Of a stretch of 64,000 nt of DNA, positions 18,338-64,000 are shown one piece after another. The notes under the pieces were generated by a model. It saw only the letters and a program-made list of their open reading frames with translations. It was not told the origin of the DNA and searched no databases. How positions within the stretch are numbered: position 1 is the first letter of the stretch; every line of letters begins with the position of its first letter. Source of the stretch: Methanococcus aeolicus Nankai-3 (GTDB lineage Archaea > AGJL01 > Methanococci > Methanococcales > Methanococcaceae); NCBI RefSeq assembly GCF_000017185.1, contig NC_009635.1, forward strand, positions 932,563-996,562, written 5' to 3'. A program made the position numbers and the translations under genes.

Positions 18338-19009
18338 TTACGGAAGGGGACTTCTTATGGAATAAGTTAAATTATATCCTTTAAATCCTCCTATCAATCT
18401 TTTTACCTTAAAGCCCAATAATTTAAAAATAGTTGCCATTGCCTGACTTCTCATTCCTCCCCTTGCACAAAATACCACAATTGTTTTGTTGTTATCAATT
18501 TTTATGGCATTTTGGGTTATTCTTTTTATACTTTCCCCGATTATCTCAGAAGCTAAATTCATAGCTTTATCCCTGCCTTCTTGTTTATAGGTTTTTCCTA
18601 TTGTTTCGTGCTCATCGTCTAAAAAAATAGGCACATTTATAGCATTTGGAATAGTTTTTTTAGCATATTCTCTCGGAGCTCTGGCATCAACAATAACAAC
18701 ATTTGATTTATCCATCTCTTCAAAATCCGATAATGTAATTACTTCGTCAAGGAGCTCCTTGCCAATAGAACCCAAATATTTTTTAATATCGATTGGTTCA
18801 AAATAAATTAATTCATCTTTATATTTTAAAGTTGTAGGGAACTCAATAGTTTTTGATTTATTCAATATAAATGAAGCCAATTCTCCACTTATTTTTCCAG
18901 CCAATATTTTATTTCCATCAGTTATTAATTTTTTTCCAGTTTTTAACTGTATTGCCAATATTACGGTATTTTTAAATGTCAGTAGTCTTGAAAGTATTTC
19001 TTCGTCCAT
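18338..19009 (-). CDS. tRNA 2-selenouridine synthase, rhodanese subunit (split SelU)
   Basis: The 223-residue protein has a rhodanese domain from about 90 on: VDARAPREY at 108-116 and the active-site C181 in CARGGMRS, the loop typical of SelU/YbbB. In Methanococcales SelU is known to be split into a rhodanese protein and a P-loop protein; the second is encoded just upstream at 19168-19845. Together they replace sulfur by selenium at the wobble uridine of tRNA. Its last residues (RSPLP) are encoded by the left-end repeat of the adjoining IS, so the natural C-terminus seems to have been replaced. Confidence 0.82.
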   Translation of the reverse strand: MDEEILSRLLTFKNTVILAIQLKTGKKLITDGNKILAGKISGELASFILNKSKTIEFPTTLKYKDELIYFEPIDIKKYLGSIGKELLDEVITLSDFEEMDKSNVVIVDARAPREYAKKTIPNAINVPIFLDDEHETIGKTYKQEGRDKAMNLASEIIGESIKRITQNAIKIDNNKTIVVFCARGGMRSQAMATIFKLLGFKVKRLIGGFKGYNLTYSIRSPLP

Positions 19010-19167: not shown

Positions 19168-19845
19168 TTAATTTTTATTTATATTATGTTCAGTTATATT
19201 ATGTTCAGTTAATTTTTCATTCACAAAATTATTTATTATTTCAACAGATTTTGATAAATCCGTATTATATACATCCAAATCGACGGTTATTTTTTTCAGT
19301 GGCCTCATGTAGGCGTCACCATATAATTTTTCCTCAATTAATTTAGCAGAGTTGTAATAGTCCTCCTTTTCCAGAAGTTCAATTATTTCGCCAACAAACT
19401 TAATTTTTTCTTCCCTCTTAAACAGTGTTTTAAGCGTCTTGAATTTTTCAAGCAATAATTTTTTCTCTTCTTCATTTTTTGGCAAATAATAACTCAAAAG
19501 TCGCTGAATTTGGCACTCATAGGGGCAGTTTATAACCATACAATAATCATAATTCTTTAAATTTGAAAATGGCTCTGGAATATCCAATTTAATATTGCCT
19601 CCTATTCTACTACCTTCAAACTCTAATATACAGTATCCTTTTTCCTTTGCCTTTTCAATTTGTTCATTTAATAATTTATCAAATGTCTTTTGGTCATTTT
19701 GTTTCAAATGATATAAATCTCCTAAAATACTACCTCTTGTGTTCCCGCATCCTTCTATATCTATTACAGGATGGTAATTTTTTAATTCCTCCAATATTTC
19801 GGTTTTTCCACAACCTGTTTTTCCAAATAATCCAAAAATTATCAT
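19168..19845 (-). CDS. tRNA 2-selenouridine synthase, P-loop subunit (split SelU)
   Basis: The 225-residue protein begins MIIFGLFGKTGCGKTEIL with the Walker A loop at 8-15, then DIEGCGNTRGSILG and LEFEGSRIG, which match the C-terminal half of bacterial SelU. I chose the ATG at 19845, which has GGTGC upstream; the longer open frame adds 27 unrelated hydrophobic residues. It lies upstream of the rhodanese half, the reverse of the domain order in the fused bacterial enzyme. Confidence 0.82.
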   Translation of the reverse strand: MIIFGLFGKTGCGKTEILEELKNYHPVIDIEGCGNTRGSILGDLYHLKQNDQKTFDKLLNEQIEKAKEKGYCILEFEGSRIGGNIKLDIPEPFSNLKNYDYCMVINCPYECQIQRLLSYYLPKNEEEKKLLLEKFKTLKTLFKREEKIKFVGEIIELLEKEDYYNSAKLIEEKLYGDAYMRPLKKITVDLDVYNTDLSKSVEIINNFVNEKLTEHNITEHNINKN

Positions 19846-19987
19846 AATAGCACCATAAAAATTCCTGAATATCTCACAAATGTAAATCGACAGATGCATT
19901 AGTAAAACGCATATCAAACAAATCATTCAATATAATATAACAATTAAAAAAATAATTCATATTTATTGAAAATATCCAAATACAGCA

Positions 19988-47859: not shown

Positions 47860-48282
47860 TTATTTGAAGTATCTTTCCAATATTCCTTTTAACATTTTAG
47901 CATGTCTTGCTTCATCTCTACTTGATTCATCAAAGAAATCATGAGCTGGGTCGATATCTAATTCTTTTGCCTTTGTTGCAGCAGCCTTTTTCTCATTGTT
48001 TGCCATACATTCTCCATTGTACATCATTTCAATGTTTTCTTTTAAGTTATCTGAAATTACCCCATTCATTTCAGCAAATTTAGCGGCATGCTCAGCTTCT
48101 TCAAATGCTATTGTTTTCAATACTTCTGCAACTTCTGGGAGACCTTCTCTCTGAGCTTGTCTTGCCATTGCCAAATACATTCCAACTTCTGCACATTCTC
48201 CTTTAAAGTTTGCTTCAACTTCTTTTTCTAAGTCTGTTCCTTTTGTGGTTCCTATTTTGTGTTCGTTTATTAATTCTACCAT
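47860..48282 (-). CDS. Rubrerythrin-like diiron protein (no rubredoxin domain)
   Basis: The 140-residue four-helix protein carries the diiron ligand helices [27 protein letters not shown] and [14 protein letters not shown]. Such proteins reduce hydrogen peroxide in anaerobes. The C-terminal rubredoxin domain of classic rubrerythrin is missing, so an external electron donor is needed. A GGTGAT precedes the ATG. It lies downstream of fprA, another oxygen-defence gene. Confidence 0.9.
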
Positions 48283-48430
48283 AAAATCACCTTTGTTATC
48301 GTATTGTATATATTTTATATAATTAATTATAATATATTTCGTATTGTGTTTTTATTATTTAATTAGAGAAATAAATACACCCTAAAAATAATAAAGAATA
48401 GATATATTATTCTATAGTTTTATTAGTATA

Positions 48431-49660
48431 TTAATTTTCTGCATCTTTTAATTTTGCTGCCAATCTTTTACCCATATTGTAGCAATTTGTTAATTCATCT
48501 TCATTTGGAACATAATTTAATTCATATTTGTCCAATACTTCAAATCCACATTTCTGTATATCTTCTGCAAGGATTTCTGTTCCTCCCCCTTGTCCTCCTT
48601 TTGAACCAAATACAATAGCTTTTCTTTTCAATCCAGTTCTATTGAATCTTAATCCCTTCAAATAATATACTATATCCCCTAATGATGGATATGGTTCATC
48701 ATTTATTGTAGGAGCTCCGAACAATACTGCCTTACTATCCAATATACTTTTTACAATTTCACTTCTTTCATCACTATGTAAATAATACATTTCTACATCA
48801 ATTCCCCCACTAATAAGACCCTCTGCAAAAGCATGAGCCATTTTTTGGGTAGAATAGTGCATAGTATCATATACTATTGTAGCTTTGTCCTTACATACTC
48901 CTGTTGCAAAGTTTTGGTATGCACCAATTACTTTCATTGGGTCGGTCCATATTTGACCATGTGAAGGAGCAATCATTTTTATTTTTTCCAATAATCCAAG
49001 CTCAATTACTTCATTGAATTTCTTCAATACAAGTTTTGATAATGGAGTAATTAAGTTTGCATAGAATTTTTGGTTGGCATCCATTAATATATTTTCTGGA
49101 ATTTCGTAATCATATCTTTGTGTAAAGCAAAGATGTTGTCCAAATGCATCATTTGAGAATAATATTCCTTCTTCCCCATATAGCGTAAACATACTGTCGG
49201 GCCAGTGTAATAATGGTGCTTCAAGGAATGTTAGCGTTTTTCCACCAATATCGATGCTTTCCAATGATTTAACTACTTTAAATGGTGCATCTTTTAATGA
49301 AGGATAATGGTTTATTAATCCTTCAACTGCTACCTCAGTACAGTAAATAGGCGCTTCTGGGAATTTTTTGTGAATTTCAGGTAATGCTCCGGAATGGTCT
49401 TTTTCAATGTGGTTTTGAACTATCACATCTATTTTAAATTCTTTTCCTTCTTTTTCACAGGCATCTTTTATTCTTCCCCACATTTGAGCTGATGTCCCCG
49501 GATATGTATTATCTATCAATACAGTTTTATCTTCTCCAAATACTATGTATGCATTATAGGTTGTTCCCTTTAATGTATATCCATGGTACATTCTAATGTC
49601 CCAATCCATTACACCTACCCAATATACTCCATCTGCTATTTTAAAAGCGTCTGCTTTCAT
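48431..49660 (-). CDS. fprA: F420H2 oxidase (flavodiiron protein FprA)
   Basis: The 409-residue protein joins a metallo-beta-lactamase diiron domain (NHIEKDHSG at 83-91, [10 protein letters not shown] and FSNDAFGQH after it) to a flavodoxin domain ([25 protein letters not shown]). In methanogens it reduces oxygen to water using F420H2. The diiron ligands are intact. It has its own upstream region of nearly 290 bp and a strong GGTGAT. Confidence 0.93.
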
Positions 49661-49947
49661 TTTATCACCCTTAATTTACATAGATATTATATTTTTAATA
49701 ATATATATATATCTGTAGGTTATACTCATAGGTCAGTTTTCATTTTACGATATAATATGTAGTATTATCGAATATAATAAGTTAACCGTGCGTATTTCGT
49801 CAATTATATTTTTAATTATACGAAATTCGAACGATTTTACAGAACCCCATAATTATTAAAAATAATTTTATTAAATAATATAAAAAATAAAATAGTAATT
49901 TAATAAGATAATAAAACTACATATATTGCAACTACCATATAACTTGT

Positions 49948-50637
49948 TTAAGGTTTAAACTCTATACCATCTTTTCTACAAACACTTTTACACTCAAAAC
50001 ATCGAATACAATCCTTTTGGTCGATATTTTTAGTTAGCTTTATTTGCATTGGGCATTTCCTTTCGCACAACCTACATTTTACACATTTATCATTTAGTTT
50101 TAATTTAAACAGAGATTTTATTGAAAGTATCGATAAAAATGCCCCAACAGGACATATATATTTACAGAAAGCTCGCGGAATAAAAAATGAAACTATTGTA
50201 AATGCCACCAATACTGCCAATGAAATTATATTTCCCGATATTCCCAATTCCGGTAAATAGGCATTATACGGACTTAATCGAATATAAATAAATATTACAA
50301 ATAAAAACAACACCACATATTTTAAATATATTAATTTATTGTGGATGTTTTCTGGGAGCTCCGGAAGTTTTTTTAACTTAAACAATTTAACCCTCAGCAT
50401 ATAGCCGAGCTCGAATAGAAATCCCCATGGACACCACCAGCTACAAAATACTCTTCCAAAAATCAGTGTTAAGACAAGCACTACTATGGATATAACTATA
50501 TAATTTTTTCCAATAGTTCCCGTAGTAATGAATGTATTTACAATTCCTATAAAAATTAAAAAGAAACTGCCCGATAGAATAAATTTTATAAAAAATGCTG
50601 TTTGAGATATTTTTCTTAATATTTGGAGCTTATCCAT
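49948..50637 (-). CDS. Membrane Fe-S protein, NapH/4Fe-4S polyferredoxin-like
   Basis: The 229-residue protein has four to five membrane helices with cysteine pairs at their ends (CSWWCPWGF and CKYICPVGAF) and a C-terminal ferredoxin domain with two cluster sets (CVKCRLCERKCP and CIRCFECKSVCR). Such proteins carry electrons across or along the membrane. It is 55 bp downstream of the DUF166 gene and probably cotranscribed. The partner is unknown. Confidence 0.82.
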   Translation of the reverse strand: MDKLQILRKISQTAFFIKFILSGSFFLIFIGIVNTFITTGTIGKNYIVISIVVLVLTLIFGRVFCSWWCPWGFLFELGYMLRVKLFKLKKLPELPENIHNKLIYLKYVVLFLFVIFIYIRLSPYNAYLPELGISGNIISLAVLVAFTIVSFFIPRAFCKYICPVGAFLSILSIKSLFKLKLNDKCVKCRLCERKCPMQIKLTKNIDQKDCIRCFECKSVCRKDGIEFKP

Positions 50638-50692
50638 AGTTTCACCAAAAATATATTTGAAATGTTAGAGGAATTTATTATAAAAAAATTTA

Positions 50693-51493
50693 TTATAAGG
50701 AGCTCTGCCCGAAAATCCCACATCTACCGCAAAATTTATTTTTACATTTGTATGGCAAAAGTGCTTTCTTTACGGCATCTAATGCAATATATCCTGCTTC
50801 GTGAAGCATGGTATCTTCCAGCTCCTTATCATATTCCATACTTCCCAAACATGGGTAGTTGTGGTGAGCGTTTGCTATCTTGTCCTTTAATTCGTTTATG
50901 ATTTTTCCTTTAATCCTTTTGGACATATAGTGAGTTTCACCACATGGTGCCGATATAATCACCTTAACATCGTCGTCTATTTTATGTCCATCTGATGATT
51001 TAATTTCAACCTGTGGAAATCCTATTTTAAAGTAATTTATAAACTCATTTAAAACTTTTCTATTATGTCTCTTTTTTAAAGCACAAAATGGCTTTGGATT
51101 TTCAAAATCCATTCCATTCTTTTCACACATTTCTTTTAAGCTGTTTCTCATAGCTATTGATAAATCAGATGGTGTTTCTGATGGCACAATTAACAATTTG
51201 TAATTTTTTTCCGCAAGCATGTTTGGGAGCTCATACAATAAATCCTCATGAAGTTGGGCAACTGCCACATCACCCTCCGGGAGCTCCGGTATGTAATCGG
51301 AAGCATCCTCTATAAATTCATCATCATCAATAGCGTCCAAAACCACAGCCTTTACATCGTCTTTATACGACCAATCCCCTCGACAGTTATAACAATCCTC
51401 ACAGATTCTACAAAAATCTGGTTCATTCAGTAGATTTTTATAAAATTTCTCCATTCTCTGGTTTCCTTTGTGGTATATAAATGTAGCTTTCAT
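50693..51493 (-). CDS. DUF166 family protein
   Basis: The 266-residue protein matches DUF166, an archaeal family sometimes labelled thymidylate synthase-like without proof. It has cysteine clusters at both ends: CRICEDCYNC near residue 28 and CKNKFCGRCGIFG at the C-terminus, which may bind a metal cluster. The start at 51493 follows GGTGAT directly; the longer open frame includes that site. The upstream region shares an element with acr3. Confidence 0.8.
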   Translation of the reverse strand: MKATFIYHKGNQRMEKFYKNLLNEPDFCRICEDCYNCRGDWSYKDDVKAVVLDAIDDDEFIEDASDYIPELPEGDVAVAQLHEDLLYELPNMLAEKNYKLLIVPSETPSDLSIAMRNSLKEMCEKNGMDFENPKPFCALKKRHNRKVLNEFINYFKIGFPQVEIKSSDGHKIDDDVKVIISAPCGETHYMSKRIKGKIINELKDKIANAHHNYPCLGSMEYDKELEDTMLHEAGYIALDAVKKALLPYKCKNKFCGRCGIFGQSSL

Positions 51494-51590
51494 AATATCA
51501 CCTAACAAGTGAGTGAGCTACAAAACCCACAGGATTTAGCTCAAATCACTTTAAAAAAGTTATTTTATATATTTTAATGAGCGTTCAATA

Positions 51591-51640
51591 CATAAAAACA
51601 TTTTTGACTACCGTTTTAAAAAATAGGACATAATTTTTAT
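51591..51640 (-). promoter_or_regulatory. Shared upstream element, copy 1
   Basis: On the minus strand GGTAGTCAAAAATGTTTTTATG is preceded by ATTATGTCCTATTTTTTAAA. Both parts recur upstream of acr3 (53281-53330), and the GTCAAAAAT core recurs upstream of the gene at 59745. It could be a BRE/TATA region or an operator shared by redox genes. Confidence 0.4.
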
Positions 51641-51691
51641 TAAAAAATTTGTAATTTTTATTATTCTTATTGTTTTTATTAAATTTTTGGA

Positions 51692-52072
51692 TTATTTTAA
51701 ATTGTTGGCGAGCTCCCTTACCTTGCCCTCAATCTCATCTCTTACATTCCTATAAAATTCAATGTCTTTATCTGCTGGGTCTTCAATATTCCATGCGATG
51801 TGTTTTTTAGCTGGAACAAAAGGGCAGGCACCTAAACATCCCATTGTAACAACAACATCAAAATTTCCAACCTCTCTAACAACCTCGTTTATTGTTTGAG
51901 GCTTTTGTTTTGCGTTTAAATTTTTTTCATTTAAAACTTCAATAACTTTTTCATCAACAACATCGGTTTTTTCTAACCCTGCACTATATGCATTTAGTCC
52001 ATATTTATTTCCAAATGCTTCTGCCATTATACTTCTCCTTTTATTGTGTATGCAAACAAACAGAACCTTCAT
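51692..52072 (-). CDS. arsC: Arsenate reductase (low-molecular-weight phosphatase type)
   Basis: The 126-residue protein has the P-loop CIHNKRRS at 7-14 with its catalytic cysteine and arginine, the resolving cysteines in MGCLGACPF, and the acid in EDPADKD. It reduces arsenate to arsenite, which the pump encoded just upstream then exports. The ribosome binding site GGAGGT is the best in the window. Confidence 0.92.
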   Translation of the reverse strand: MKVLFVCIHNKRRSIMAEAFGNKYGLNAYSAGLEKTDVVDEKVIEVLNEKNLNAKQKPQTINEVVREVGNFDVVVTMGCLGACPFVPAKKHIAWNIEDPADKDIEFYRNVRDEIEGKVRELANNLK

Positions 52073-52121
52073 ATTTTACCTCCGGAGCCAAATGGCACCA
52101 AAATAATATAAATAATATTTT

Positions 52122-53156
52122 TTACCATTTTGTCTTATTTGCAATCCAGACAAGTGTTAACATTAACGGAACCTCTACAAGAACACCAACAACCGTTGCA
52201 AGTGCAGCTCCACTGTTGAGCCCAAATAATGTTATCGCAACTGCAACTGCAAGCTCAAAGAAGTTACTAGCTCCAATAAGTGCTGATGGAGCAGAGATAT
52301 TGTGCGGTAAATTCCACTTTTTTGTCCAGTAATATGCCAAACCAAATACAAAGAATGTTTGTATTATTAAAGGTATAGATATCAACAATATATACAAAGG
52401 ATTGGTTAATATTATTCCCCCCTGGAATGAGAATAAAAGCATCAAAGTCATCAATAAGCTTAATATTGAAGCCTTGTTTAAACTTGGTATAAATGTTTTT
52501 TCAAACCATTTTTGTCCCTTATGTGCCAGTAAGTACTTCCTTGATAGATATCCAAAAATCAACGGTATAACTACATACAGGAATACTGAAAGAAACAATG
52601 TATCATAAGGAATAGGAATGTTGCTTATTCCCATTAAAAACCCAACTATTGGGACAAATGCAATGAGTATTATTAAATCATTTGTGGCTACCTGCACTAA
52701 TGTATATAAAGGGTCCCCATCAGTCAGATAACTCCAAACAAACACCATGGCAGTACATGGTGCCACTCCCAAAAGTATTGCCCCAGCAACATATTCCTTA
52801 GCCAATTCCAATGGAATAAAACCAAATTTTGAAAAAATCGTTATTAAAAATAATGACGCAAATATATACATTGTGAATGGTTTTATTAACCAATTTATGG
52901 CCCAGGTTATCGTCATTCCTTTAATATAATTCTTTTTTACCATCTCCACAGCCCTAAAATCAATCTTTACCATCATTGGATAAATCATTGCCCATATTAA
53001 TACTGCTATCGGAATGTTAACATTGGCTATCGTAAATTTTGAGAGTGTTTGAGGAATTATTGACAAATAATTGCCTATTAGAATCCCTGCGATTATACAC
53101 AATGCCACCCATATTGAAAGATACTTTTCAAAAAACCCTAGTCCTTTTTTACCCAT
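52122..53156 (-). CDS. acr3: Arsenite efflux transporter, ACR3 family
   Basis: The 344-residue protein has ten predicted membrane helices. The family signature is GVAPCTAMVFVWSYLTDGDP, with the conserved cysteine and a later conserved SNFFELAVAVAI segment. It exports arsenite. arsC begins 50 bp downstream, forming a two-gene arsenic operon. No ArsR-type regulator is encoded nearby. Confidence 0.94.
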   Translation of the reverse strand: MGKKGLGFFEKYLSIWVALCIIAGILIGNYLSIIPQTLSKFTIANVNIPIAVLIWAMIYPMMVKIDFRAVEMVKKNYIKGMTITWAINWLIKPFTMYIFASLFLITIFSKFGFIPLELAKEYVAGAILLGVAPCTAMVFVWSYLTDGDPLYTLVQVATNDLIILIAFVPIVGFLMGISNIPIPYDTLFLSVFLYVVIPLIFGYLSRKYLLAHKGQKWFEKTFIPSLNKASILSLLMTLMLLFSFQGGIILTNPLYILLISIPLIIQTFFVFGLAYYWTKKWNLPHNISAPSALIGASNFFELAVAVAITLFGLNSGAALATVVGVLVEVPLMLTLVWIANKTKW

Positions 53157-54116: not shown

Positions 54117-54872
54117 TTATAATCTGTAAAATTCCTTTGCATTTTTATATGTGGAGCTCCCTATTTTATCATCTTCAACTCCAATTTTTTGCATATATAA
54201 TTTTGTTCTCGGCAAGGCATAAATATCCGCCTTTAAACTACCCAAATCACTGCTTAGGATGAATTTTTTATTATAATTTTTTATTATTTCCGATGCTTCC
54301 ATAGGGCTTATTTTCATAGGTTGTTGCACTGTTAAACCAATATAAACATCCCTATCTATTAAATCCACAGTATCCTTATTGATGTGGTCAATCATTACTA
54401 AATCATCCTTTATTTTCACTTCATCCAAAATTTTTAAAATTTCAATTAATGCCTCTTTCTTATTCTTTTCAGGAGTATGAACAATTATCGGCATGTTGTA
54501 ATCCTTTGCTAAATACAACTGCTCTTTTAAAAGGTTTTTCTCATCATCGGTTAAATAATGTAGTCCAGTTTCCCCAATAGCTACAACATTTTCAATATCT
54601 AAAAACTCTGGAAGTTTTTTTATAAGGAGCTCCCAGTTTTTAGGATATCCCATAGGATGAGCCCCCACTGCAACCTTAACATCAACTCCTGCCATTTTTC
54701 CTCTTTTAGTCTCTAAGTTAATCAACCTATCCCAATGGTCTAAACAAACTTCTGGAACGCTCATTTTATATGGGTCATGGGCACAGGTAATTATTGTTTC
54801 AATTCCACATAATGCCATTTTCTCTAAATCCTCAAAACTTCTTACATCCAAATGAGTATGGGCATCTATCAT
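54117..54872 (-). CDS. TatD-related metal-dependent hydrolase (COG1099)
   Basis: The 251-residue TIM-barrel protein has the metal ligands of the TatD family: MIDAHTHLD at the start, AVGAHPMGYP, AIGETGLHYL, IIVHTPEKN, MIDHINKDT and SSDLGS. The archaeal COG1099 group has no proven substrate; DNase or other phosphoesterase activity is possible. It starts the run of genes leading into the sulfur-relay cluster downstream of it only by strand; the spacing is over 100 bp. Confidence 0.82.
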   Translation of the reverse strand: MIDAHTHLDVRSFEDLEKMALCGIETIITCAHDPYKMSVPEVCLDHWDRLINLETKRGKMAGVDVKVAVGAHPMGYPKNWELLIKKLPEFLDIENVVAIGETGLHYLTDDEKNLLKEQLYLAKDYNMPIIVHTPEKNKKEALIEILKILDEVKIKDDLVMIDHINKDTVDLIDRDVYIGLTVQQPMKISPMEASEIIKNYNKKFILSSDLGSLKADIYALPRTKLYMQKIGVEDDKIGSSTYKNAKEFYRL

Positions 54873-54983: not shown

Positions 54984-55331
54984 TTATTTAGTTAAATAAT
55001 AATAAAACTTCTCATCATCTGCAAGGCAGTGGATTGTTGCCTGCCTAATTCCAAAGTTTGCGCCTATCTTTTTTGCAAACTGCTTTTCCATATCTATAGT
55101 TTCGTTTAAAACTTCTACAATATCGCCATCGTTGTTTATGTTTATTGTAGGTTTCTCATTGTAGTATATTATATATTTTTCATACAGGAGCTCCGCATCC
55201 TCCATCTGAACCTTTGAAAAATCATTTAACAATTCATTATTGTATTGTTCAATCGAACATAATTTGGCAATTATTGATAGTTTCATTTTATTTGATATTA
55301 TTTTTACTACATTTTCTTTTAAATGTTCCAT
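54984..55331 (-). CDS. Uncharacterised protein of the sulfur-relay cluster
   Basis: The 115-residue acidic protein has no motif I recognise. It contains two cysteines (LCSIEQY near 28 and IHCLADDEK near 103). It is the last gene of the tight DsrF/DsrE/DsrH/DsrE2 run, beginning 8 bp after DsrF, with a GGTGAAA binding site. Position suggests a role in the same sulfur-handling process. Confidence 0.6.
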   Translation of the reverse strand: MEHLKENVVKIISNKMKLSIIAKLCSIEQYNNELLNDFSKVQMEDAELLYEKYIIYYNEKPTININNDGDIVEVLNETIDMEKQFAKKIGANFGIRQATIHCLADDEKFYYYLTK

Positions 55332-55339
55332 TATTTCAC

Positions 55340-55702
55340 CTAAAAGGTAATTACATCTTCATATTCGTTTAAAATATTTTTTAATTCCATATATCTCACT
55401 ACCTCAACATCATCCAGTATGTCGTCGGTTTCTATTTCCCTTTCCTTTAAACACTCCTCAATACAATATATTTTGCATCCAAAAGCACTTAAATTATTTA
55501 TCACATCCACAATTGAAGGCATTCCCAATTCCTCTGGTTTTTGCCCAGATTTAGCATTATAAACCCCGTCATGAATTAAAATGACATCGGATTTTTCAAT
55601 AATTCCGCTGGCAATTTGGGACAGTGCAAACATCATGCCGGCGAAGGAATCTTCACTTCCATAAGGTGGCTTTAATATTATTGTAATAAGTGATTTAACC
55701 AT
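55340..55702 (-). CDS. DsrF/TusC-like protein
   Basis: The 120-residue protein matches the DsrE/DsrF family fold: LITIILKPPYGSEDSFAGMMFAL, then VILIHDGVY and a cysteine-containing end of the sheet (FGCKIYCIEECLKE). In TusBCD and DsrEFH complexes this is the non-catalytic C/F subunit that assembles with E and H. The gene order E, F-like here and the 4-nt spacing support that. Confidence 0.78.
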   Translation of the reverse strand: MVKSLITIILKPPYGSEDSFAGMMFALSQIASGIIEKSDVILIHDGVYNAKSGQKPEELGMPSIVDVINNLSAFGCKIYCIEECLKEREIETDDILDDVEVVRYMELKNILNEYEDVITF

Positions 55703-55706
55703 TATT

Positions 55707-56063
55707 TCACCTTGTAAGTGTAATTACTCTATCACTATCTGCTATATATTTTGAAAGGTCGTTGGTTAAACTTCCGATTTTACATCCTTCAATTACATTT
55801 TCCTCATAAATTCCCCTTGCATTTGCACATGTGCTACATGCCGCCACGACCATACCTTTATCCATTAACTCTTTAATCGTGGTTCCAAGATTTGGGAATC
55901 TTTTTGGGGCTTGTTTATCTATTATTGCAGTGATTCCTTCACCGTAGAAAAACATATTTACTTTATGCCCTTTTTTTAATGCGGATTCTGCCAGTTTTAC
56001 GGCAAAATTACCGTCCATATTCATCATGGCACCAGATTTTAAAATAATAGTTAATGTTTTCAT
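55707..56063 (-). CDS. DsrE/TusD-like sulfurtransferase subunit
   Basis: The 118-residue protein has the DsrE fold (LTIILKSGAMMNMDGNFAVK) and the persulfide-carrying region VVAACSTCANARGI, with C76 and C79 in the position of the active cysteine of TusD/DsrE. It would accept sulfur from TusA. Tight spacing on both sides places it with DsrF and DsrH subunits. Confidence 0.82.
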   Translation of the reverse strand: MKTLTIILKSGAMMNMDGNFAVKLAESALKKGHKVNMFFYGEGITAIIDKQAPKRFPNLGTTIKELMDKGMVVAACSTCANARGIYEENVIEGCKIGSLTNDLSKYIADSDRVITLTR

Positions 56064-56072
56064 AAACCCACC

Positions 56073-56360
56073 TTAAAGAGTAATCACTTGGTTATATTTT
56101 TCCATAATCAAATCCACCGCTGTATCGTAATCAATGAGCTCCGTTTCTTCAATAGTTTCAAACCCCCTTGCATGTGCGTCATTCTCCATTGCATATATTT
56201 TATAATGGAGCTCCCTAAGTTTGTTCCTCATGTTTGAAGTTGTGGCATAGTATATCCCATCTTCTGCAAGAAGAACTCCATCGTTACCATCTTTTAATTT
56301 TTCCATTACTTCAATGGCATTACACTCAAAAGGAGATTTTAAAAGAATAAATAGTGTCAT
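56073..56360 (-). CDS. DsrH/TusB-like subunit
   Basis: The 95-residue protein resembles DsrH/TusB: TLFILLKSPFE at the start, VLLAEDGIYYA in the middle and AMENDAHARGFE, matching the family's DveARG segment. Its only cysteine is in the N-terminal loop. It is between the DsrE and DsrE2 genes with 4-9 nt gaps. Confidence 0.78.
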   Translation of the reverse strand: MTLFILLKSPFECNAIEVMEKLKDGNDGVLLAEDGIYYATTSNMRNKLRELHYKIYAMENDAHARGFETIEETELIDYDTAVDLIMEKYNQVITL

Positions 56361-56364
56361 TAAA

Positions 56365-56781
56365 TCACCCTATGAAAAGCTGAACTTTTGCATCCATTGC
56401 AAGGTCTATAAATTTTGTGGCTCCAACTATTTCCACTCCATCAATTAAATCTTCTTCTTTTACTCCCATTATACTCATAGAAGTGCTACATGCATAAAGC
56501 TTAGCACCTAAATCGATAGTCTGTTGTCGAGATTCCTCAAATCCGCCAATATTCTGCTTTTTCATTTTCTTTTCCATCATCTTTACCCCCAAACTTCCAA
56601 ATAATCTATATATTCCAGGAAGTTTAGGCTTAGCATTCTTCTTTAATACTTCAAGTCCAAAAAATGTAAAGAAAATATGTACCTCCATCCCCATGGATGC
56701 ACCTATGGTTCCAAGAATAAAAGCCATCATTGCCTTATCAAAAGTGCCTTCTGAAACCACAAGTGCCATTTTATCGGCCAT
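56365..56781 (-). CDS. DsrE2-like membrane-associated sulfur carrier (COG2210)
   Basis: The 138-residue protein matches the DsrE2 family: MALVVSEGTFDKAMMAFILGT with a hydrophobic first helix, LPGIYRLFGS, and the conserved cysteine in LYACSTSMSIMG. DsrE2 proteins often accompany TusA and rhodanese in sulfur oxidisers; here TusA is encoded directly upstream. It probably works as a persulfide carrier at the membrane. Confidence 0.83.
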   Translation of the reverse strand: MADKMALVVSEGTFDKAMMAFILGTIGASMGMEVHIFFTFFGLEVLKKNAKPKLPGIYRLFGSLGVKMMEKKMKKQNIGGFEESRQQTIDLGAKLYACSTSMSIMGVKEEDLIDGVEIVGATKFIDLAMDAKVQLFIG

Positions 56782-56850
56782 AATACCACCAAATAGTAAA
56801 TAAAAAAATATAAAAAAATAAAATAGAAAATAATAATAGATATTAAGACT

Positions 56851-57069
56851 TTATTTTTTCTTAATTTTGAAGGCTAAAATCCCATTTTCTTCGGTCATTT
56901 CAACCAATTCATTTCCTGTTCTATTACACCATGCTGGAACATCTTCTTTTGCCCCAACATCATCAGCTATGAGCTCTAAAATCTCCCCTTCCTTTAACTC
57001 CTTCATTTTCTTAGCGAGCTCTACAATGGGCATTGGACATTGTAATCCTCTCGCATCTAATGTAGCCAT
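56851..57069 (-). CDS. tusA: TusA sulfur-carrier protein
   Basis: The 72-residue protein has the TusA signature RGLQCPMPIVELAKKM, with the persulfide cysteine C11 followed by PMP, and the C-terminal GAKEDVPAWCNRTGNELV. It hands sulfur to DsrE-type partners, all encoded next to it. GGTG precedes the ATG. Confidence 0.92.
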   Translation of the reverse strand: MATLDARGLQCPMPIVELAKKMKELKEGEILELIADDVGAKEDVPAWCNRTGNELVEMTEENGILAFKIKKK

Positions 57070-57100
57070 ATTTACACCTTTTAATTAGTATTAAATATCG

Positions 57101-57292
57101 TTAAAATTTAACCTTTACTGCCCCTGTTGGACATACATCTTCACAAACTCCACAGCCTGTGCATTCATCTTCATGAGCTACAACAACTTTTTCTCCATCA
57201 ACTTCAAAAACTTCCATAGGGCAGTTTTTTTCACATTCTCCACATTCTTTTGCTCCTTTGCATGTGTCATAGTTAATAGTTACACTTACCAT
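57101..57292 (-). CDS. Ferredoxin, 2[4Fe-4S]
   Basis: The 63-residue protein has two cluster motifs: CKGAKECGECEKNCP and CTGCGVCEDVCPTGA. The first has a longer spacing (CX4CX2CX3C form) than the classic CX2CX2CX3C, seen in some methanogen ferredoxins. It likely supplies electrons to the neighbouring hybrid-cluster protein or sulfur enzymes. Confidence 0.9.
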   Translation of the reverse strand: MVSVTINYDTCKGAKECGECEKNCPMEVFEVDGEKVVVAHEDECTGCGVCEDVCPTGAVKVKF

Positions 57293-57355
57293 ATATTATC
57301 ACCATATTATAAATTACATCGATATATTTAGTTATTATTCAACTTTTCAACTTTA

Positions 57356-57706
57356 TTATTCAACTTTATTGGGTTCTTCTGGACCGCCTATTTTTGAAGG
57401 ATGTGGTGCTTTGATTACAAAGAATTCAAGAACCTCACATGTTAAATTTTGAGCAATCATCTTTGTATTGAACGGCAAATGAATTATTGTTCCAGCAGGA
57501 TATACTTTTGGCTCTTGGTCTTCCAGAGTTAATGTCATCTCTCCCTTTATAACTATTAAATGAACCTTTGAGTTTGTAAAGTGCTTAGGTGTGCCTTCTC
57601 CTTTTGGAAATATCATATGGATAATTTGAACATCGTCGGTATTAACTATTTTTTCCACGGTCTTTGAATCCGATTCAGTAGTAAAATTGTATGTTTTTTC
57701 TATCAT
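57356..57706 (-). CDS. Cupin-domain protein
   Basis: The 116-residue protein has the cupin pattern: FPKGEGTPKHFTNSKVHLIVIKGEMTL and AGTIIHLPFNTKM, with histidines that may bind a metal. No substrate is indicated. It lies between the ferredoxin and hcp genes on the same strand, so a role in the same stress response is plausible. Confidence 0.8.
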   Translation of the reverse strand: MIEKTYNFTTESDSKTVEKIVNTDDVQIIHMIFPKGEGTPKHFTNSKVHLIVIKGEMTLTLEDQEPKVYPAGTIIHLPFNTKMIAQNLTCEVLEFFVIKAPHPSKIGGPEEPNKVE

Positions 57707-57808
57707 AAAATCACCATAAAATAAAAATAAAAATAAAAAAATAAATTTCGTAGGTAATTCTGTGTGCTTTCAGGTGTAATGAATTTAATATTTAATAATA
57801 TTTCATTC

Positions 57809-59584
57809 TTACTGATTTATCATTTTTTCAATGTCTTCATCAACTGTGGATATTGCTCCAATTCCAAAGTTTTCTACAAGAACATTTGCTACATTAGGTG
57901 ATAAAAATGCCGGTAGCGTTGGACCTAAATATATATTCTTTACACCGAGGTGTAATAATGCCAACAATACAGCAACAGCTTTTTGCTCATACCATGCTAC
58001 ATTATATGCTATTGGTAAGTCATTTATATCCTCTAATTCAAATACTTCTTTCAATTTAAGGGCTATCACAGCTAATGAATAACAGTCATTACATTGTCCT
58101 GCATCCAATACTCTTGGAATTCCCCCAATATCCCCTAAATTCAATTTATTGTATCTGTATTTTGCACATCCTGCTGTTAATATAATTGTATCCTCTGGAA
58201 GTGCCTTAGCAAATTCTGTGTAATAATTTCTTGAATTATGTCTTCCATCACATCCAGCCATTACAACAAATTTTCTTACTGCTCCAGACTTCACAGCTTC
58301 AACAACTTTATCCGCCAATGCAAATACTTGGTTGTGAGCAAATCCTCCAACTATCTTACCAGTTTCAATTTGTTTTGGTGGGGCACATTTTTTAGCCTTT
58401 TCGATTACTTCTGAGAAATCTTTGTTTCCATTTTCATCAACTGGAATATATTTTAAACCGGGGTACCCTACAACTCCTGTTGTATATATTCTATCAACAT
58501 AGCTTTCTGCGGGTGGAACGATACAATTTGTTGTCATTACAATTGGTCCATTGAATGATTCAAACTCGCTTTTTTGTGTATGCCATGCGCCACCATAGTT
58601 TCCTACAAAGTGGTCATATTTCTTAAATGCTGGGTAATAATGAGCTGGCAACATTTCACTGTGAGTATATACATCTACACCAGTTCCTTTTGTTTGCTCC
58701 AACAACTGTTCCATGTCTTTTAAATCATGTCCACTTATCAATATTGCTGGGTTGTTTCTTACCCCTATTTCAACCTCTGTTATTTCTGGGTGTCCGTATG
58801 TTTCTGTATTTGCTTTATCCAGTAAAGCCATTGTATCTACAACATATTTACCACATTCAAGAACAAAAGCTGTCAAGTCATCTCCTGAAAGTGTGTCATC
58901 AACTGTTGATGCCATAGCTTTTCTTATAAATTTATGCAATTCTTTATCATCGTATCCCAATACCATGGCATGATGTAAATATGCACTCATACCTTTTACT
59001 CCATAGGTCAATAATTCTCTTAAAGACCTTATATCTTCATTTTCTGTTGCCTGAACAGATACATCTAAGGAGTTAGCTTTTGCAATGATTTCCTCATCAT
59101 TTTCTGGCTTCCAGGTTACACAATCAGGCAAATCAACACTGCATCCACATGAACATGTTGGTGTAGCTTGGTCTCTAAGTGCCAATCCTTCTTTTATTTT
59201 TGATATGATATCTTGGTCGTCGAAATTTGCATTTGTAATGGTAGTAAATAATGCATCAACTATGTATTTATCTATTGCATCGTTTGAGTACCCTAAGTTT
59301 ATCCTAACTACACTCAATCCCTTTACCACATATATTAAAAGGTCCTGGAGATTAGCTACATTATCTTTTTTACCACATACCCCCGCTACGGTACATCCCG
59401 TATTTCTTGCTGTTTCTTGACATTGGAAACAGAACATTTTTGTTAATCTTGGAGATAATTCCATTTTTTCACCTTTTTTAATTTCTACTTCTGGTTCTAC
59501 TGCTAAAACGCCTTTATCCTTAGATACATTACTCCCTATTATTTTATCCACAATTGACTTTACTTTTTGTTGTATATCACTCAT
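57809..59584 (-). CDS. hcp: Hybrid-cluster protein (hydroxylamine reductase)
   Basis: The 591-residue protein has the N-terminal Fe-S cluster motif [17 protein letters not shown], an inner [12 protein letters not shown] segment, and hybrid-cluster ligands in [21 protein letters not shown] and [15 protein letters not shown]. Such proteins reduce nitric oxide or hydroxylamine and act in nitrosative stress. The N-terminal 45 residues are an extra, lysine-rich extension. It is flanked by an Fe-S protein upstream and a cupin and ferredoxin downstream. Confidence 0.93.
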
Positions 59585-59744
59585 TATTTCACCCTAAATT
59601 ATAATAATATAATATTTCATTTTTTACTTATATCTATTGTTGATACCATTGGCCATCAATTTGATATAATTAGTAATATTATATTTATTATTTTTATTAC
59701 CCTATTATTCCTATTGTATTAATATATTTATCCTATTATTTATA

Positions 59745-60458
59745 CTATTTTATTAATTTACCATCCAATGAAATTATATATGTATTTATTTCACAATCAA
59801 GTCCCTCTAATGCCTTCTGCACTATTTTACGCATTTCAGAACAGCAAGGCACACTCATAATTACTATATCTACTTTTTTTATGTCATTTAATTTAACAAT
59901 TGTCCTTATTTTTTCAGAATATCCCGAAATATCGTCTAATTTTGGACATCCGATTGCCAAAACTTTCCCCTTTAAGAATTTCTTGTGAAAATTTGCATAG
60001 GCAAATGGAACGCAATCTGCCACTATTGCCAATTCGGCATCTTTGAAGTAAGGTGCCATAGGATTTAAAAGGTGAAGCTGAACAGGCCAGTTCATTAATT
60101 CAGAATTTACTTCTACGCCCTCCGCTCCGCTTTCAATATTTGCCCCTCTGTTAAAGGTTTTTGCTACGGAGCTCGGGCATGAATGACCTGCATGACTACC
60201 ACCACATCCACCTTTCTTTTCATCCTCTTTTATCTCAACTTCTTCTTTTATTATATTCAAGGCATCAACAGGACACACATCTAAACAGGAGCCCACTCCA
60301 TCGCAGTGGATTTCCTTATCCTTATTCACCTTTACCTTCCCCGTCTCCTCGTCAGGAATTAGGATATTTTCCTCGCAGGCGTCAATACACAACCCGCATT
60401 TCTCATATCCTATACATTTGTCCTGGATTACTTCAACTTTATATTTGGTTATTTTCAT
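59745..60458 (-). CDS. Fe-S protein, ferredoxin domain plus conserved C-terminal domain
   Basis: The 237-residue protein starts with a two-cluster ferredoxin (CIGYEKCGLCIDACEE and CDGVGSCLDVCPVDA), has a Gly/Cys/His-rich linker (GGCGGSHAGHSCP), and then a domain of NWPVQLHLLNPMAPYFKDAE and AIGCPKLDD. Proteins of this type occur beside hcp genes and probably pass electrons to it. It is first in the hcp-sulfur block and has a GTCAAAAAT element upstream. Confidence 0.82.
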   Translation of the reverse strand: MKITKYKVEVIQDKCIGYEKCGLCIDACEENILIPDEETGKVKVNKDKEIHCDGVGSCLDVCPVDALNIIKEEVEIKEDEKKGGCGGSHAGHSCPSSVAKTFNRGANIESGAEGVEVNSELMNWPVQLHLLNPMAPYFKDAELAIVADCVPFAYANFHKKFLKGKVLAIGCPKLDDISGYSEKIRTIVKLNDIKKVDIVIMSVPCCSEMRKIVQKALEGLDCEINTYIISLDGKLIK

Positions 60459-60574: not shown

Positions 60575-60967
60575 TTATGCATAAATTGATATAATTAGTA
60601 TTACTATAATTAAAAAAAGTAATATTATTTTAATTCTCTTAACTCCTTTCAATTTATTCAAGGTATAATTTAGTTTATTCAAATTTACGCCCATCTTTTC
60701 ATAATTTTCAATAATATCTAATGAAATATCCTTTTTAATCAAATCATCCATTGTCTTAGAAGGAGCTCCTTTATTTCTTAGGTTTATAAATATATCTCTT
60801 GCCTTTTCTAAATCATAGTCATTTTCTATTAGTTTATTTATAACATCATCTGAAATATGTCTTTTCTTTAAATCTCCTACTGTCTTTCTTATCTTTGTTA
60901 AATAATCTACATTATTAGCGTTTTTAGTTATTTTAGATATAGAACTTTGAACTTTTAGATATTCCAT
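60575..60967 (-). CDS. Toxin-cassette N-terminal module with membrane-anchor tail (copy 1)
   Basis: Residues 8-60 are nearly identical to the N-terminal modules of the genes at 61686 and 63256 (SISKITKNANN, KKRHISDDVIN). The next part matches the 63256 gene further (LRNKGAPSKTMDDLIKKD). After about residue 105 it ends in one membrane helix (IILLFLIIVILIISIYA) instead of a nuclease domain. There is no binding site at the ATG; homology begins exactly there, so it is probably an orphan cassette produced by recombination. Confidence 0.55.
   Translation of the reverse strand: MEYLKVQSSISKITKNANNVDYLTKIRKTVGDLKKRHISDDVINKLIENDYDLEKARDIFINLRNKGAPSKTMDDLIKKDISLDIIENYEKMGVNLNKLNYTLNKLKGVKRIKIILLFLIIVILIISIYA
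60838..60967 (-). repeat. Cassette repeat, copy 1
   Basis: About 125 bp encoding the shared module (from ISKSS-like to ISDD-IN) recurs here, at 62128-62250 and at 63878-64000. Copies 1 and 3 remain similar for a further 70 bp. Copy 1 has lost one G and gained five bases near its 5' end. Confidence 0.8.
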
Positions 60968-61022
60968 TTGGATTATTTTATTTAATTATATAAATTATAC
61001 TAGATAAAAAAGAAAAAAATAG

Positions 61023-61670
61023 TCAAAATTCTGTTCCTAATAAATATTTAGAAACTTCTTTAACCTTATTAGTTAAAAAACTATGATTAAATGGATTTTC
61101 ATCTAATAATATTAAAAGACCTCCATCATCTAATTCTTCAACTTTATAAACTGGTGCAGATAAAATCCTATCCTTCCCAATGTTTTTAACAATCTTTGGA
61201 GATAATATCGTTAAGCCAGTTATTATTTTTGGCTTTCCTTCTTTAATAAGTTGTTCGTAAGTGGGAATATATTCATCTTCTAATTCTTCTCCATCGTAAT
61301 ATAAAACCATTAAAGGCGTTGTTTTTAAGTAAAGATTTTTTATAAGGTTAATTAGTTTATTTATTGAATTTACTGGCTGTCTCGATAAAGTGTAGAAAAA
61401 GGTTAATTCGAAAGAATTTTTTGAGATTAATAGGTCAAAACTACTATTTTCTACTGTAAAATTACTAATCAGTCCTGTATTGTATTTTGAAATCGATTCA
61501 CACACATTATTTAAGTTATCAGTATCAATATATATACAATCCGTTCCTACAGAAACAGCATCTAATTCTAAATCCGCCCCCAAATCCTCAATATATTTAA
61601 TTAGTTTGATAATATCCTGTTTATTCCATTTTTGTTTATTCAATATGTAATCTACACAATCGATAGTCAT
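61023..61670 (-). CDS. Predicted immunity protein for the cassette at 61686
   Basis: The 215-residue, overall acidic, soluble protein matches no family I recognise. It starts 15 bp after the toxin-like gene ends, with a proper GGCGAT binding site, whereas the toxin fragment itself has none. This is the usual toxin-then-immunity order. It contains LMVLYYDGEELEDEYIPTYEQL and a C-terminal LLILLDENPF. Confidence 0.5.
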   Translation of the reverse strand: MTIDCVDYILNKQKWNKQDIIKLIKYIEDLGADLELDAVSVGTDCIYIDTDNLNNVCESISKYNTGLISNFTVENSSFDLLISKNSFELTFFYTLSRQPVNSINKLINLIKNLYLKTTPLMVLYYDGEELEDEYIPTYEQLIKEGKPKIITGLTILSPKIVKNIGKDRILSAPVYKVEELDDGGLLILLDENPFNHSFLTNKVKEVSKYLLGTEF

Positions 61671-61685
61671 AATATCGCCATTTTA

Positions 61686-62536
61686 TTATGGTTTATACAC
61701 TACATACTTAGCTCCAAATTCATTTAATTTTCTAATAACATCATCATTTGGCTGTTCTCTAAAACAATACATCAATTCTTTATCGTGAGTTTTTGAATAA
61801 TCACTTAATTTTCTTAGTTGTTCTACAAATCTTTGCCATTTTCTGCTTCCATCTTTCACAATATCTTTACCTTTGCATTCAATAATCTTATTTGTGGTTT
61901 CAATATCTATTTCAGTCTCATATCCATAGGTCTTCTTATCTAATTTTTTAGACAACTCCACAATCTCATTAACATTACACTTTTCAGCAGCTACCATTGC
62001 CTCATACGGAGCTCCTGTATTTCCATTTTTAATACTTTTGAGTAATTCACTATATCCATCCACTTTTCTAAGTTTGCTTAAAGCATTATTTAGTTTTTCT
62101 AAGTCGATATCTTTATTTATATATTTATTTATAGCATCATCTGAAATATGTCTTTTCTTTAAATCTCCTATTGTCTTTCTTATCTTTGTTAAATCATTTA
62201 CATTATTAGCATTTTTAGTTATTTTAGCAATAGAACTTTTAGATATTCCCATCTTAGATAATTTATTTGTTTCATCTACTGCTTTTTTAAGAGCATCGTT
62301 TGGTTTGTTGCTGTTTTTGATGATGCTGTTTATTGTGCTTGTTTCTACTCTTTTATCTTTGAGTTTAGATATTCTGTTATCTATCCATCCAAGTTTTTTA
62401 TCATTTTTAACAGCATCTTTAAACAGCTTGTTAATATTCTCTGGTTCAACTCATTCATCTAAGAGATTAACAGCATTATCTGCAACTGTTTTTGGACTAT
62501 ATCCCTTACTCTCTTTCTTTGCTGACTCTTTGATTT
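61686..62536 (-). pseudogene. Orphan toxin cassette with PD-(D/E)XK-like C-terminus (copy 2)
   Basis: From 62252 on, an open frame of 188 residues has the shared module (1-45), a short linker, and a C-terminal nuclease-like domain: YETEIDIETTNKIIECKGKD with D116, E125 and K127. The same frame continues upstream to 62536 (KLGWIDNRISKLKDKRV and NKPNDALKKAVDETNKLSK) but is cut by one TGA at 62451-62453. It lacks an RBS and a proper 5' end, so it looks like the 3' part of a larger toxin gene. Confidence 0.6.
62128..62250 (-). repeat. Cassette repeat, copy 2
   Basis: Copy 2 is almost identical to copy 3 for its first 60 bases from the GGAATATCTAAAAGTTC end and diverges slowly after that. It marks the border between the constant module and the variable toxin end. 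Confidence 0.8.
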
Positions 62537-62611
62537 AAAAAAATAGATTAATTAAAAAATGTAATTTATTTGTTATGTTAGATAAAAATAGAATTAAGAT
62601 TTTAAAAAGAT

Positions 62612-63238
62612 TTATATCCAATCATCGTCCTCTTCCACTTCTGGAGCTACTGAGTTAGTATTAAGGATATATAAATAACACTTCCCTATTTTTTCAATTA
62701 ATTGTGGCTCTGTTAATATATCTGTTTCGTCCCATATTACTTTCTCTGGAATTTTTATATCTAAATCTTCTTTATACACAAATAACCACGGTAGTTTTGT
62801 AAAATTATCTGTTATATCTGATAAGAATTCTTTTGGATTTTTATATTTCTTTTTTTCTAACTTTATTTCATACTCCTCTATTGTATTATGAATACCTCCA
62901 AATCCAAATTCTGGCTGAATAAGTTCTATAACTTTTTTAACTGTATCTATAAGTATTTGAGTATTTTGCTTTGCTATTTGTTTTGCTTTTTCTATCGGAT
63001 ACTCATCTTCATAGAAATAGGAACAATACTTACTATAGTCTGTTAAAACTCCAACAATATAGTATTCTTCTCCAAATATATTCTCTACAATTGTTCCTTC
63101 AATTGTGGTGCGTATTCCCAAACCCGTATATATATTTGGCAACTTTTCATTTATTTCTTTCTTATAATTTTTAAGTATTTTTTCATATTTTTTAGGATTT
63201 TCTTTTGTATAAAAATTAATTAAAAGGTCTGAAGACAT
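62612..63238 (-). CDS. Predicted immunity protein for the cassette at 63256
   Basis: The 208-residue acidic protein (ending EVEEDDDWI) is not similar to the one at 61023 and matches no family I know. I chose ATG 63238, which follows a perfect GGGTGAT; the open frame begins four codons earlier. It lies 18 bp after the toxin-like gene. The position, size and acidity fit an immunity protein for a nuclease. Confidence 0.5.
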   Translation of the reverse strand: MSSDLLINFYTKENPKKYEKILKNYKKEINEKLPNIYTGLGIRTTIEGTIVENIFGEEYYIVGVLTDYSKYCSYFYEDEYPIEKAKQIAKQNTQILIDTVKKVIELIQPEFGFGGIHNTIEEYEIKLEKKKYKNPKEFLSDITDNFTKLPWLFVYKEDLDIKIPEKVIWDETDILTEPQLIEKIGKCYLYILNTNSVAPEVEEDDDWI

Positions 63239-63255
63239 GTTATCACCCATTACTT

Positions 63256-64000
63256 TTATAATTCATCTATATTTTTTACAATTATCTCTTTATCTGAAAC
63301 AAATGCGACTTTTTCTATATTATATTTTTTAAATATCTCTTTTGCATTTTTTACACTAATTTTAGAGTGTTTTGGAAATACAAGTATTCCTGTTTTACCT
63401 GTAGCTTCAATTTTTCTGTTTAATTGATTTGTCCAATCTCTTATATCTTTGTCACTTATTTTTTTACTTGGTTTTATATTTTTACATTCATACACCGCCT
63501 TATCCGTTAATGCATCTATTTCTTCCCTATTATGATTCATAGAAAACTTAATAACATTCTCTCCTTTATCTATTAATCTTGATGCTGTTTTTAGTTCAAA
63601 TGCTATATCGTTTGCCTTTTCGTTATTTTTTGCAATATCTCTTAATACCTTCTGCAACACATATTGACTTGGATTGTCAGGATTTTTTATACTTGAGAGT
63701 TTTTCTATATCTTTGAAATCAATTTTTCCTTTAAGGTATTGTAATGCAGATATTTCTTTTAAAGAATATTCTTTCTTAATCAAATCATCTATTATCTTCG
63801 CTGGAACTCCTTTATTTCTCAATTCTACAATAGTATCTTTCGCTTTTTCTAAATCATAACCTTTTTCTATTAACTCATTTATAGCATCATCTGAAATATG
63901 CCTTTTCTTTAAATTTCCAATGATTTTTCTTTGTTTTGTTAAATCATTTACATTATTAGCATTTTTAGTTATTTTAGCAATAGAACTTTTAGATATTCCC
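63256..64000 (-). CDS. Polymorphic toxin-like protein, C-terminal part (partial, runs off the window)
   Basis: The frame is open from the window edge to 63256, so at least 247 residues. It starts with the shared module (GISKSSIAKI through KKRHISDDAIN), continues with helical repeat-like segments (ELIEKGYDLEKAKD, LRNKGVPAKIIDDLIKKEYS), and ends with a domain containing REEIDALTDKAVYECKN and WTNQLNRKIEATGKTGILVF. The D..ECK pattern and following helix suggest a PD-(D/E)XK nuclease. The N-terminal delivery part must lie beyond 64000. Confidence 0.65.
   Translation of the reverse strand, partial: GISKSSIAKITKNANNVNDLTKQRKIIGNLKKRHISDDAINELIEKGYDLEKAKDTIVELRNKGVPAKIIDDLIKKEYSLKEISALQYLKGKIDFKDIEKLSSIKNPDNPSQYVLQKVLRDIAKNNEKANDIAFELKTASRLIDKGENVIKFSMNHNREEIDALTDKAVYECKNIKPSKKISDKDIRDWTNQLNRKIEATGKTGILVFPKHSKISVKNAKEIFKKYNIEKVAFVSDKEIIVKNIDEL
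63878..64000 (-). repeat. Cassette repeat, copy 3
   Basis: This copy ends exactly at the window edge with GGGAATATCTAAAAGTTC on the minus strand, the same point where copies 1 and 2 begin. Confidence 0.8.

Follow-up and report, generated by a model that had tools for sequence, protein, structure and literature searches.

A five-gene TusA–DsrE2–DsrHEF cassette in methanogens, a candidate DsrC-independent sulfur relay

To place a cluster of sulfur-transfer genes in Methanococcus aeolicus Nankai-3, we analysed a 64,000-nucleotide (nt) stretch of its genome (positions 932563-996562 of a single-contig genome of 1,569,500 bases, G000), hereafter the window, together with related archaeal genomes. 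On its minus strand the window carries tusA, dsrE2, dsrH, dsrE and dsrF, a cassette that recurs in fixed order in distant archaea. From the conserved cysteines and homology of the encoded proteins, we propose that the five genes may specify a methanogen-type, DsrC-independent relay of sulfane sulfur (persulfide or thiosulfate), a reading whose chances of being right or wrong we regard as evenly balanced.

In the order of transcription, the minus strand encodes a 237-amino-acid (aa) iron–sulfur protein, Hcp, a cupin, a ferredoxin, TusA, DsrE2, DsrH, DsrE, DsrF, a 115-aa protein that we termed F1 and a TatD-family protein, and the intergenic gaps from tusA through dsrE2, dsrH and dsrE to dsrF are 69, 4, 9 and 4 bp. 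The first cassette gene, tusA (56851..57069), encodes a 72-aa protein with the catalytic Cys11 in a CPMP motif (PF01206, 95.6 bits). It is followed by dsrE2 (56365..56781; 138 aa; PF13686 (DsrE_2), 122.4 bits), dsrH (56073..56360; 95 aa; PF04077, 67.4 bits), dsrE (55707..56063; 118 aa; PF02635, 71.0 bits) and dsrF (55340..55702; 120 aa; PF02635, 69.4 bits). All five Pfam matches exceed the curated cut-offs, bearing out the initial annotation as to both the identities of TusA, DsrE2, DsrH, DsrE and DsrF and the completeness of the set. Among the NCBIfam models, that of the TusB domain was the only one passed by a cassette protein, DsrH (73.8 bits against a cut-off of 49.2); the top models for DsrF and DsrE were TusC and TusD, respectively, both below cut-off, DsrE2 stayed below the DsrE2 equivalog cut-off (90.6 versus 210), and TusA obtained its best score as TusA, with YedF models matching below cut-off. 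A profile search of the PDB returned chains of the Allochromatium vinosum DsrEFH complex for DsrF (2hy5_B) and DsrH (2hy5_C), and 1jx7_A and A. vinosum 2hy5_A for DsrE, with 2hy5_A ranked after YchN; given these matches to 2hy5_A, 2hy5_B and 2hy5_C, the three-subunit DsrE/DsrF/DsrH assignment holds. The nearest solved structures for DsrE2 in the same type of search were 2qs7 and 3pnx. Alignments revealed that Cys98 of DsrE2 (6 sequences) and the Cys76-x-x-Cys79 pair of DsrE (10 sequences) are invariant and that TusA keeps the CPMP cysteine, in agreement with the CPxP catalytic motif, across the cassette sequences compared, while the alignments of DsrF and DsrH contained no invariant cysteine. 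Such a pattern is what a DsrEFH-type relay would be expected to show, DsrE being the presumed catalytic subunit and DsrF and DsrH presumed non-catalytic ones.

The initial annotation had counted the 115-aa protein as a sixth member of the set and placed the ferredoxin with it; both instead accompany hcp in genomes that have no cassette. The hcp gene itself (57809..59584), which encodes a hybrid cluster protein of the hydroxylamine reductase family (NF003658, 886 bits; 11 loci), lies on the minus strand in a row with genes for the 237-aa iron–sulfur protein (59745..60458; Fer4 domains; family F10; hcp neighbour at 5 loci), a small cupin (57356..57706; family F2; conserved hcp neighbour at 11 loci, with a Pfam match below the curated cut-off), the ferredoxin (57101..57292; Fer4, two 4Fe-4S motifs), F1 (54984..55331) and, downstream of F1, the TatD-family hydrolase (54117..54872; PF01026, 66.7 bits; conserved neighbour at 7 loci). 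F1, for which no Pfam match was obtained, is strongly matched in 22 of the 36 Methanococcales genomes and adjoins hcp in all 12 neighbourhoods read, mostly together with the cupin, and the ferredoxin holds the equivalent position in four cassette-less genomes (G022, G023, G026 and G028). When G023, a close relative, is compared with the window, DNA homology ends at the final codon of the ferredoxin gene and restarts at the ribosome-binding site of F1, the interval between the two genes being approximately 144 bp in G023 versus approximately 1,764 bp in the window. Because the G023 neighbourhood lacks the cassette and both F1 and the ferredoxin are tied to hcp, the unit consists of five genes rather than six, and the ferredoxin and F1 were ruled out as parts of the relay. 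Most relatives possess the full hcp row and no cassette. The sulfur unit is thus a block of five genes inserted in, or retained within, an hcp gene row that is conserved across Methanococcales.

Several further observations concern this row and the rest of the window. Conserved neighbours of hcp in Methanococcales (the cupin and F1, often with the iron–sulfur protein, the ferredoxin and TatD) were seen at 54984-60458 of the window and at loci L045, L046, L049-L054 and L056-L058. F1 is predicted with high confidence to form a four-helix, ferritin-like bundle (pLDDT 93.7) that resembles bacterioferritin by Foldseek (E 0.008), with the usual ExxH diiron motifs absent by eye, and is a possible candidate partner of Hcp. 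The Hcp of G033, which belongs to the family of G000, is letter-for-letter identical to that of Methanothermococcus thermolithotrophicus (structure 8CNR), and in G033 the genes for the 237-aa iron–sulfur protein, Hcp, the cupin, F1 and TatD are adjacent, in contrast to the published description of the M. thermolithotrophicus hcp as an isolated gene without related neighbours (PMC10210160). A stress region at 47860-53156 encodes a rubrerythrin-like protein, a flavodiiron protein, a NapH-like iron–sulfur membrane protein, a DUF166 protein, an ArsC-like protein and ACR3 arsenite efflux. The window also contains a split tRNA 2-selenouridine synthase, SelU (18338-19009 and 19168-19926), both halves of which score far above the NCBIfam cut-offs, a TnpB-type RNA-guided endonuclease frame that is apparently split in two (17208-18113 and 16853-17155) and, at 60575-63822, a run of small proteins, several of which share the N-terminal motif ITKNANNVxxLTKIRKTxGDLKKRHISDD; the single one of these searched had no family match. 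A scan for sigma-70 promoters, the model of which does not cover archaeal promoters, found no more than expected by chance.

Within Methanococcales, the cassette is an optional module. Close orthologues of both DsrE and DsrE2 were found in 3 of the 36 genomes (G000, G035 and G001), so the cassette meets no general need in the order. Between G035 and G001 the block has approximately 88% DNA identity, and because the F1 of G001 is 96% identical to that of G035 versus 50% to that of its congener G007, the sequences suggest that the block probably moved between lineages. The cassette proteins of G000 and G035 are 73–86% identical, compared with 57–71% for Hcp, the cupin and F1 and 87–89% for TatD and ArsC. 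In G034, which belongs to the genus of G035 and has neither the ferredoxin nor the cassette, the cupin–F1 spacer retains the last 10 codons of dsrF and the stop codon (L053 9772-9891; 58 nt, 54 of them identical to G035; score of 96 versus a shuffle maximum of 39). This remnant indicates that the cassette was lost from G034 by deletion, contradicting simple absence in all cassette-less relatives. No significant dsrF scar was detected in G023, and the match in G033 was restricted to the spacer behind dsrF. Gain, transfer-mediated spread and repeated loss within Methanococcales would fit these observations. The GC content of the cassette (34–36%) is not clearly different from that of hcp and is uninformative, lending no support either way to a recent foreign import, and close plasmid-borne copies were dismissed, the best plasmid matches being just 29–37% identical. 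The dsrH of G001 is split over two frames (L046 9583-9868), which may reflect decay or a sequencing error.

The set had been expected to be out of place in methanogens; yet TusA–DsrE2–DsrH–DsrE–DsrF are encoded on one strand and in fixed order at 22 loci, 3 in Methanococcales and 19 in other archaea, named Methanomassiliicoccaceae among them, and with these 19 further loci the expectation falls away. In a scan of named genomes, MAGs under the labels Methanomassiliicoccaceae, Euryarchaeota, Methanomicrobia and others proved to carry related sets; DsrE matched in 43 of the 390 genomes of the phylum of the first such MAG (approximately 20 strongly). In the Methanosaeta phylum (394 genomes), the DsrE2 profile matched in 68 genomes but much more weakly, at ≤109 bits versus approximately 250. 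The gene for archaeosine synthase alpha, arcS (NF040592, 439.1 bits, the cut-off being 440), follows the set at 16 of the 19 non-Methanococcales loci and at 3 partial loci. Of the 22 sets outside Methanococcales, full or partial, 19 have arcS behind them on the same strand, with outgroup loci L116-L118 left out of the count. A TrmB-type regulator gene and pyrB diverge upstream in all 16 full sets followed by arcS, and no hcp-neighbourhood gene was found near the cassette at the loci read outside Methanococcales. A tree built from the five proteins in concatenation groups the Methanococcales sets in a single clade (99/99 support) beside the other sets. With its recurrence in distant methanogens, the set looks like a genuine methanogen form of an already known machine for sulfur transfer. 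Two outgroup sets, L116 and L117, are arranged differently, as dsrH-dsrE-dsrF-tusA followed first by a gene for a YeeE/YedE-type sulfur transporter (PF04143, 160 bits), then by one for a protein with four rhodanese domains. A literature search, with most subscription journals outside its coverage, found no description of the set in methanogens.

The partner that takes up sulfur in both known relays is missing in all carriers searched. DsrC/TusE (PF04358) was above cut-off in none of the 36 Methanococcales genomes and in none of the 7 other genomes with related sets, the E. coli control being positive. Because the MnmA and Aminotran_5 family searches matched all controls, hit counts were not used, and these families were judged on score and coverage, with NCBIfam models for single proteins. 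A full-length MnmA was not found in this way, the matches in 13 genomes being partial, of ≤31 bits and read as generic PP-loop proteins; nor was a recognisable cysteine desulfurase in G000, where the protein that best matches PF00266 (class-V aminotransferase) scores as an aminotransferase. One carrier outside Methanococcales (G210) does have a SufS-like enzyme, and Methanococcales have been reported to lack cysteine desulfurase (PMC10067955). The neighbours of the cassette are hcp or arcS genes, with no dsrAB or shdr genes seen near it and no hdr-like or lipoate-related genes recognised among the labelled neighbours of the cassette loci. With no DsrC/TusE, no full-length MnmA and no recognised desulfurase in the window genome, tRNA thiolation of the canonical kind and sulfur oxidation through Dsr both appear unlikely. 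The first impression that neither enteric TusABCDE tRNA thiolation nor Dsr sulfur oxidation fits this organism therefore stands.

The cassette resembles several characterized systems and coincides with none of them. One of these is type I DsrEFH of A. vinosum, known together with rhd-tusA-dsrE2 (PMC3397948, PMC4175335): the protein families are the same, DsrE, DsrF and DsrH are encoded together, the DsrE cysteine is conserved, and TusA and DsrE2 are partners. Unlike the A. vinosum system, the methanogen set comes without DsrC and without a dsr operon, begins with dsrH (H-E-F), has TusA and DsrE2 clustered with DsrEFH and has a CxxC motif in DsrE. The NCBIfam rankings recall E. coli TusBCD/TusA, which serves tRNA 2-thiouridine formation; the methanogen set differs from it by the absence of TusE, of full-length MnmA and of a recognised desulfurase in the window genome and by the addition of DsrE2. 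In having TusA beside a three-subunit DsrEFH-like transferase, it is similar to the type II DsrEFH or yeeE-tusA-dsrEFH (YTD) clusters, the make-up of which is shared by outgroup sets L116 and L117, but it is set apart from type II, by the published description, in that it has DsrE2 and no DsrC (PMC13293266). Type II DsrEFH has been described for the most part from sulfate-reducing and disproportionating organisms that have reductive DsrAB, and methanogens go unmentioned in the main text of this 2026 survey of types I and II (PMC13293266). The dsrE3A-dsrE2B-tusA genes of Metallosphaera cuprina likewise encode an archaeal TusA together with DsrE2, but they are tied to an Hdr-like complex and dihydrolipoamide dehydrogenase and lack a DsrEFH trimer (PMC4175335). 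Finally, TusA and DsrE families also occur in the same Methanococcales genomes as a TusA–DsrE pair (TusAD of M. maripaludis), which, unlike the cassette, consists of just two genes. Throughout Methanococcales there is a second DsrE-like protein, which in G000 is 31% identical to the cassette DsrE. G000 also encodes a 272-aa TusA–DsrE fusion beside a DUF5400 gene (L048 6249-7067), with kin in many Methanococcales genomes.

In the relay that we propose, on the strength of homology and of conserved catalytic cysteines, TusA (Cys11) and DsrE2 (Cys98) would take up a persulfide or thiosulfonate group. The group would then be handed to the DsrE active site (Cys76/Cys79) within a DsrE–DsrF–DsrH complex, in which DsrF and DsrH would act as structural subunits and which would deliver the sulfur to an acceptor other than DsrC/TusE. 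In M. aeolicus the cassette is probably co-transcribed with the hcp–cupin–ferredoxin–F1 row that surrounds it and would serve as an optional module for zero-valent sulfur (polysulfide, S0 or thiosulfate). TusA and DsrE families also act in tRNA and selenium chemistry, and the outgroup transporter and rhodanese are not part of the cassette, both of which count against the relay. A YeeE-like pair that occurs elsewhere in Methanococcales genomes is not distributed in step with the cassette, and none was found in the non-Methanococcales carriers tested. Of the roles first suggested, namely the handling of persulfide or sulfite or a supply of sulfur for cofactors, none can be separated from the others by sequence, and the part that gained ground is sulfane-sulfur handling, which the nearest outgroup sets favour through their transporter and rhodanese neighbours. 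These neighbours, and by analogy the in vitro transfer of thiosulfate by archaeal DsrE3A/TusA (PMC4175335), support sulfane sulfur as the putative substrate class. More tentatively, and with more doubt than belief, we suggest a methanogen-specific relay without DsrC/TusE that is common to two deeply separated methanogen groups and has a new terminal acceptor; arcS, its near-constant partner outside Methanococcales, may mark a new sulfur route into tRNA.

A different possibility, which we consider unlikely, is that the set acts like TusABCD, with an archaeal tRNA thiolase such as NcsA, and not TusE–MnmA, as the recipient of its sulfur. The score of DsrH above the TusB cut-off, the TusC and TusD rankings of DsrF and DsrE and the position of the tRNA enzyme gene arcS next to the set would all suit this role, but TusE/DsrC is absent, MnmA matches are weak and partial, 33 of the 36 Methanococcales genomes lack the cassette and, to our knowledge, ArcS chemistry itself requires no sulfur. 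The split tRNA 2-selenouridine synthase in the window and the induction of the TusA–DsrE pair of M. maripaludis by 4.5–4.6 log2-fold on selenium depletion (PMC11097638) also point to tRNA, whereas the NcsA of that species uses inorganic sulfide to thiolate tRNA in vitro (PMC10067955). Together, the arcS adjacency and the selenium response of the pair leave room for a tRNA role with a different thiolase.

The location of the cassette within the hcp–cupin–ferredoxin–F1 row, the rubrerythrin, flavodiiron and arsenic genes of the same region and the predicted ferritin-like fold of F1 would be compatible with an Hcp-linked stress module, in which the relay supplies or repairs sulfur in iron–sulfur clusters or thiols hit by NO, O2 or arsenic and the operon ferredoxin is the electron source. 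We hold this to be distinctly improbable, since the same cassette occurs outside Methanococcales without a nearby hcp-neighbourhood gene, most relatives have the complete hcp row without the cassette, and proximity may merely reflect insertion into an expressed operon. Still less probable is selenium handling, in which TusA and DsrE proteins would carry selenium as proposed for YedF-type systems; it draws on the below-cut-off YedF matches of TusA, the split SelU genes of the window and the response of the M. maripaludis TusA–DsrE pair to selenium status (PMC11097638). The cassette TusA scores best as TusA, however, and no selenium genes were recognised beside the cassette at the loci that were read. 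Barely conceivable, although the protein families are those of A. vinosum DsrEFH, is dissimilatory sulfur oxidation, whether through reverse Dsr, in which DsrEFH would feed DsrC, or through an sHdr system: the absence of DsrC already contradicts the reverse-Dsr form, the neighbours are hcp or arcS genes with no dsrAB or shdr genes seen among them, and we know of no terminal electron acceptor in strictly anaerobic methanogens that would suit it.

Methanococcales have no cysteine desulfurase and are believed to draw directly on sulfide, and for this reason the way in which sulfur moves in methanogens is an open question. A complete DsrEFH–TusA–DsrE2 set without DsrC, for which we favour the relay of sulfane sulfur, suggests a machine that is used outside both known pathways. 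The presence of dsrEFH alone should be treated with caution as a marker of sulfur oxidation, and the ordered recurrence of the set beside arcS provides a concrete place to seek the missing acceptor.
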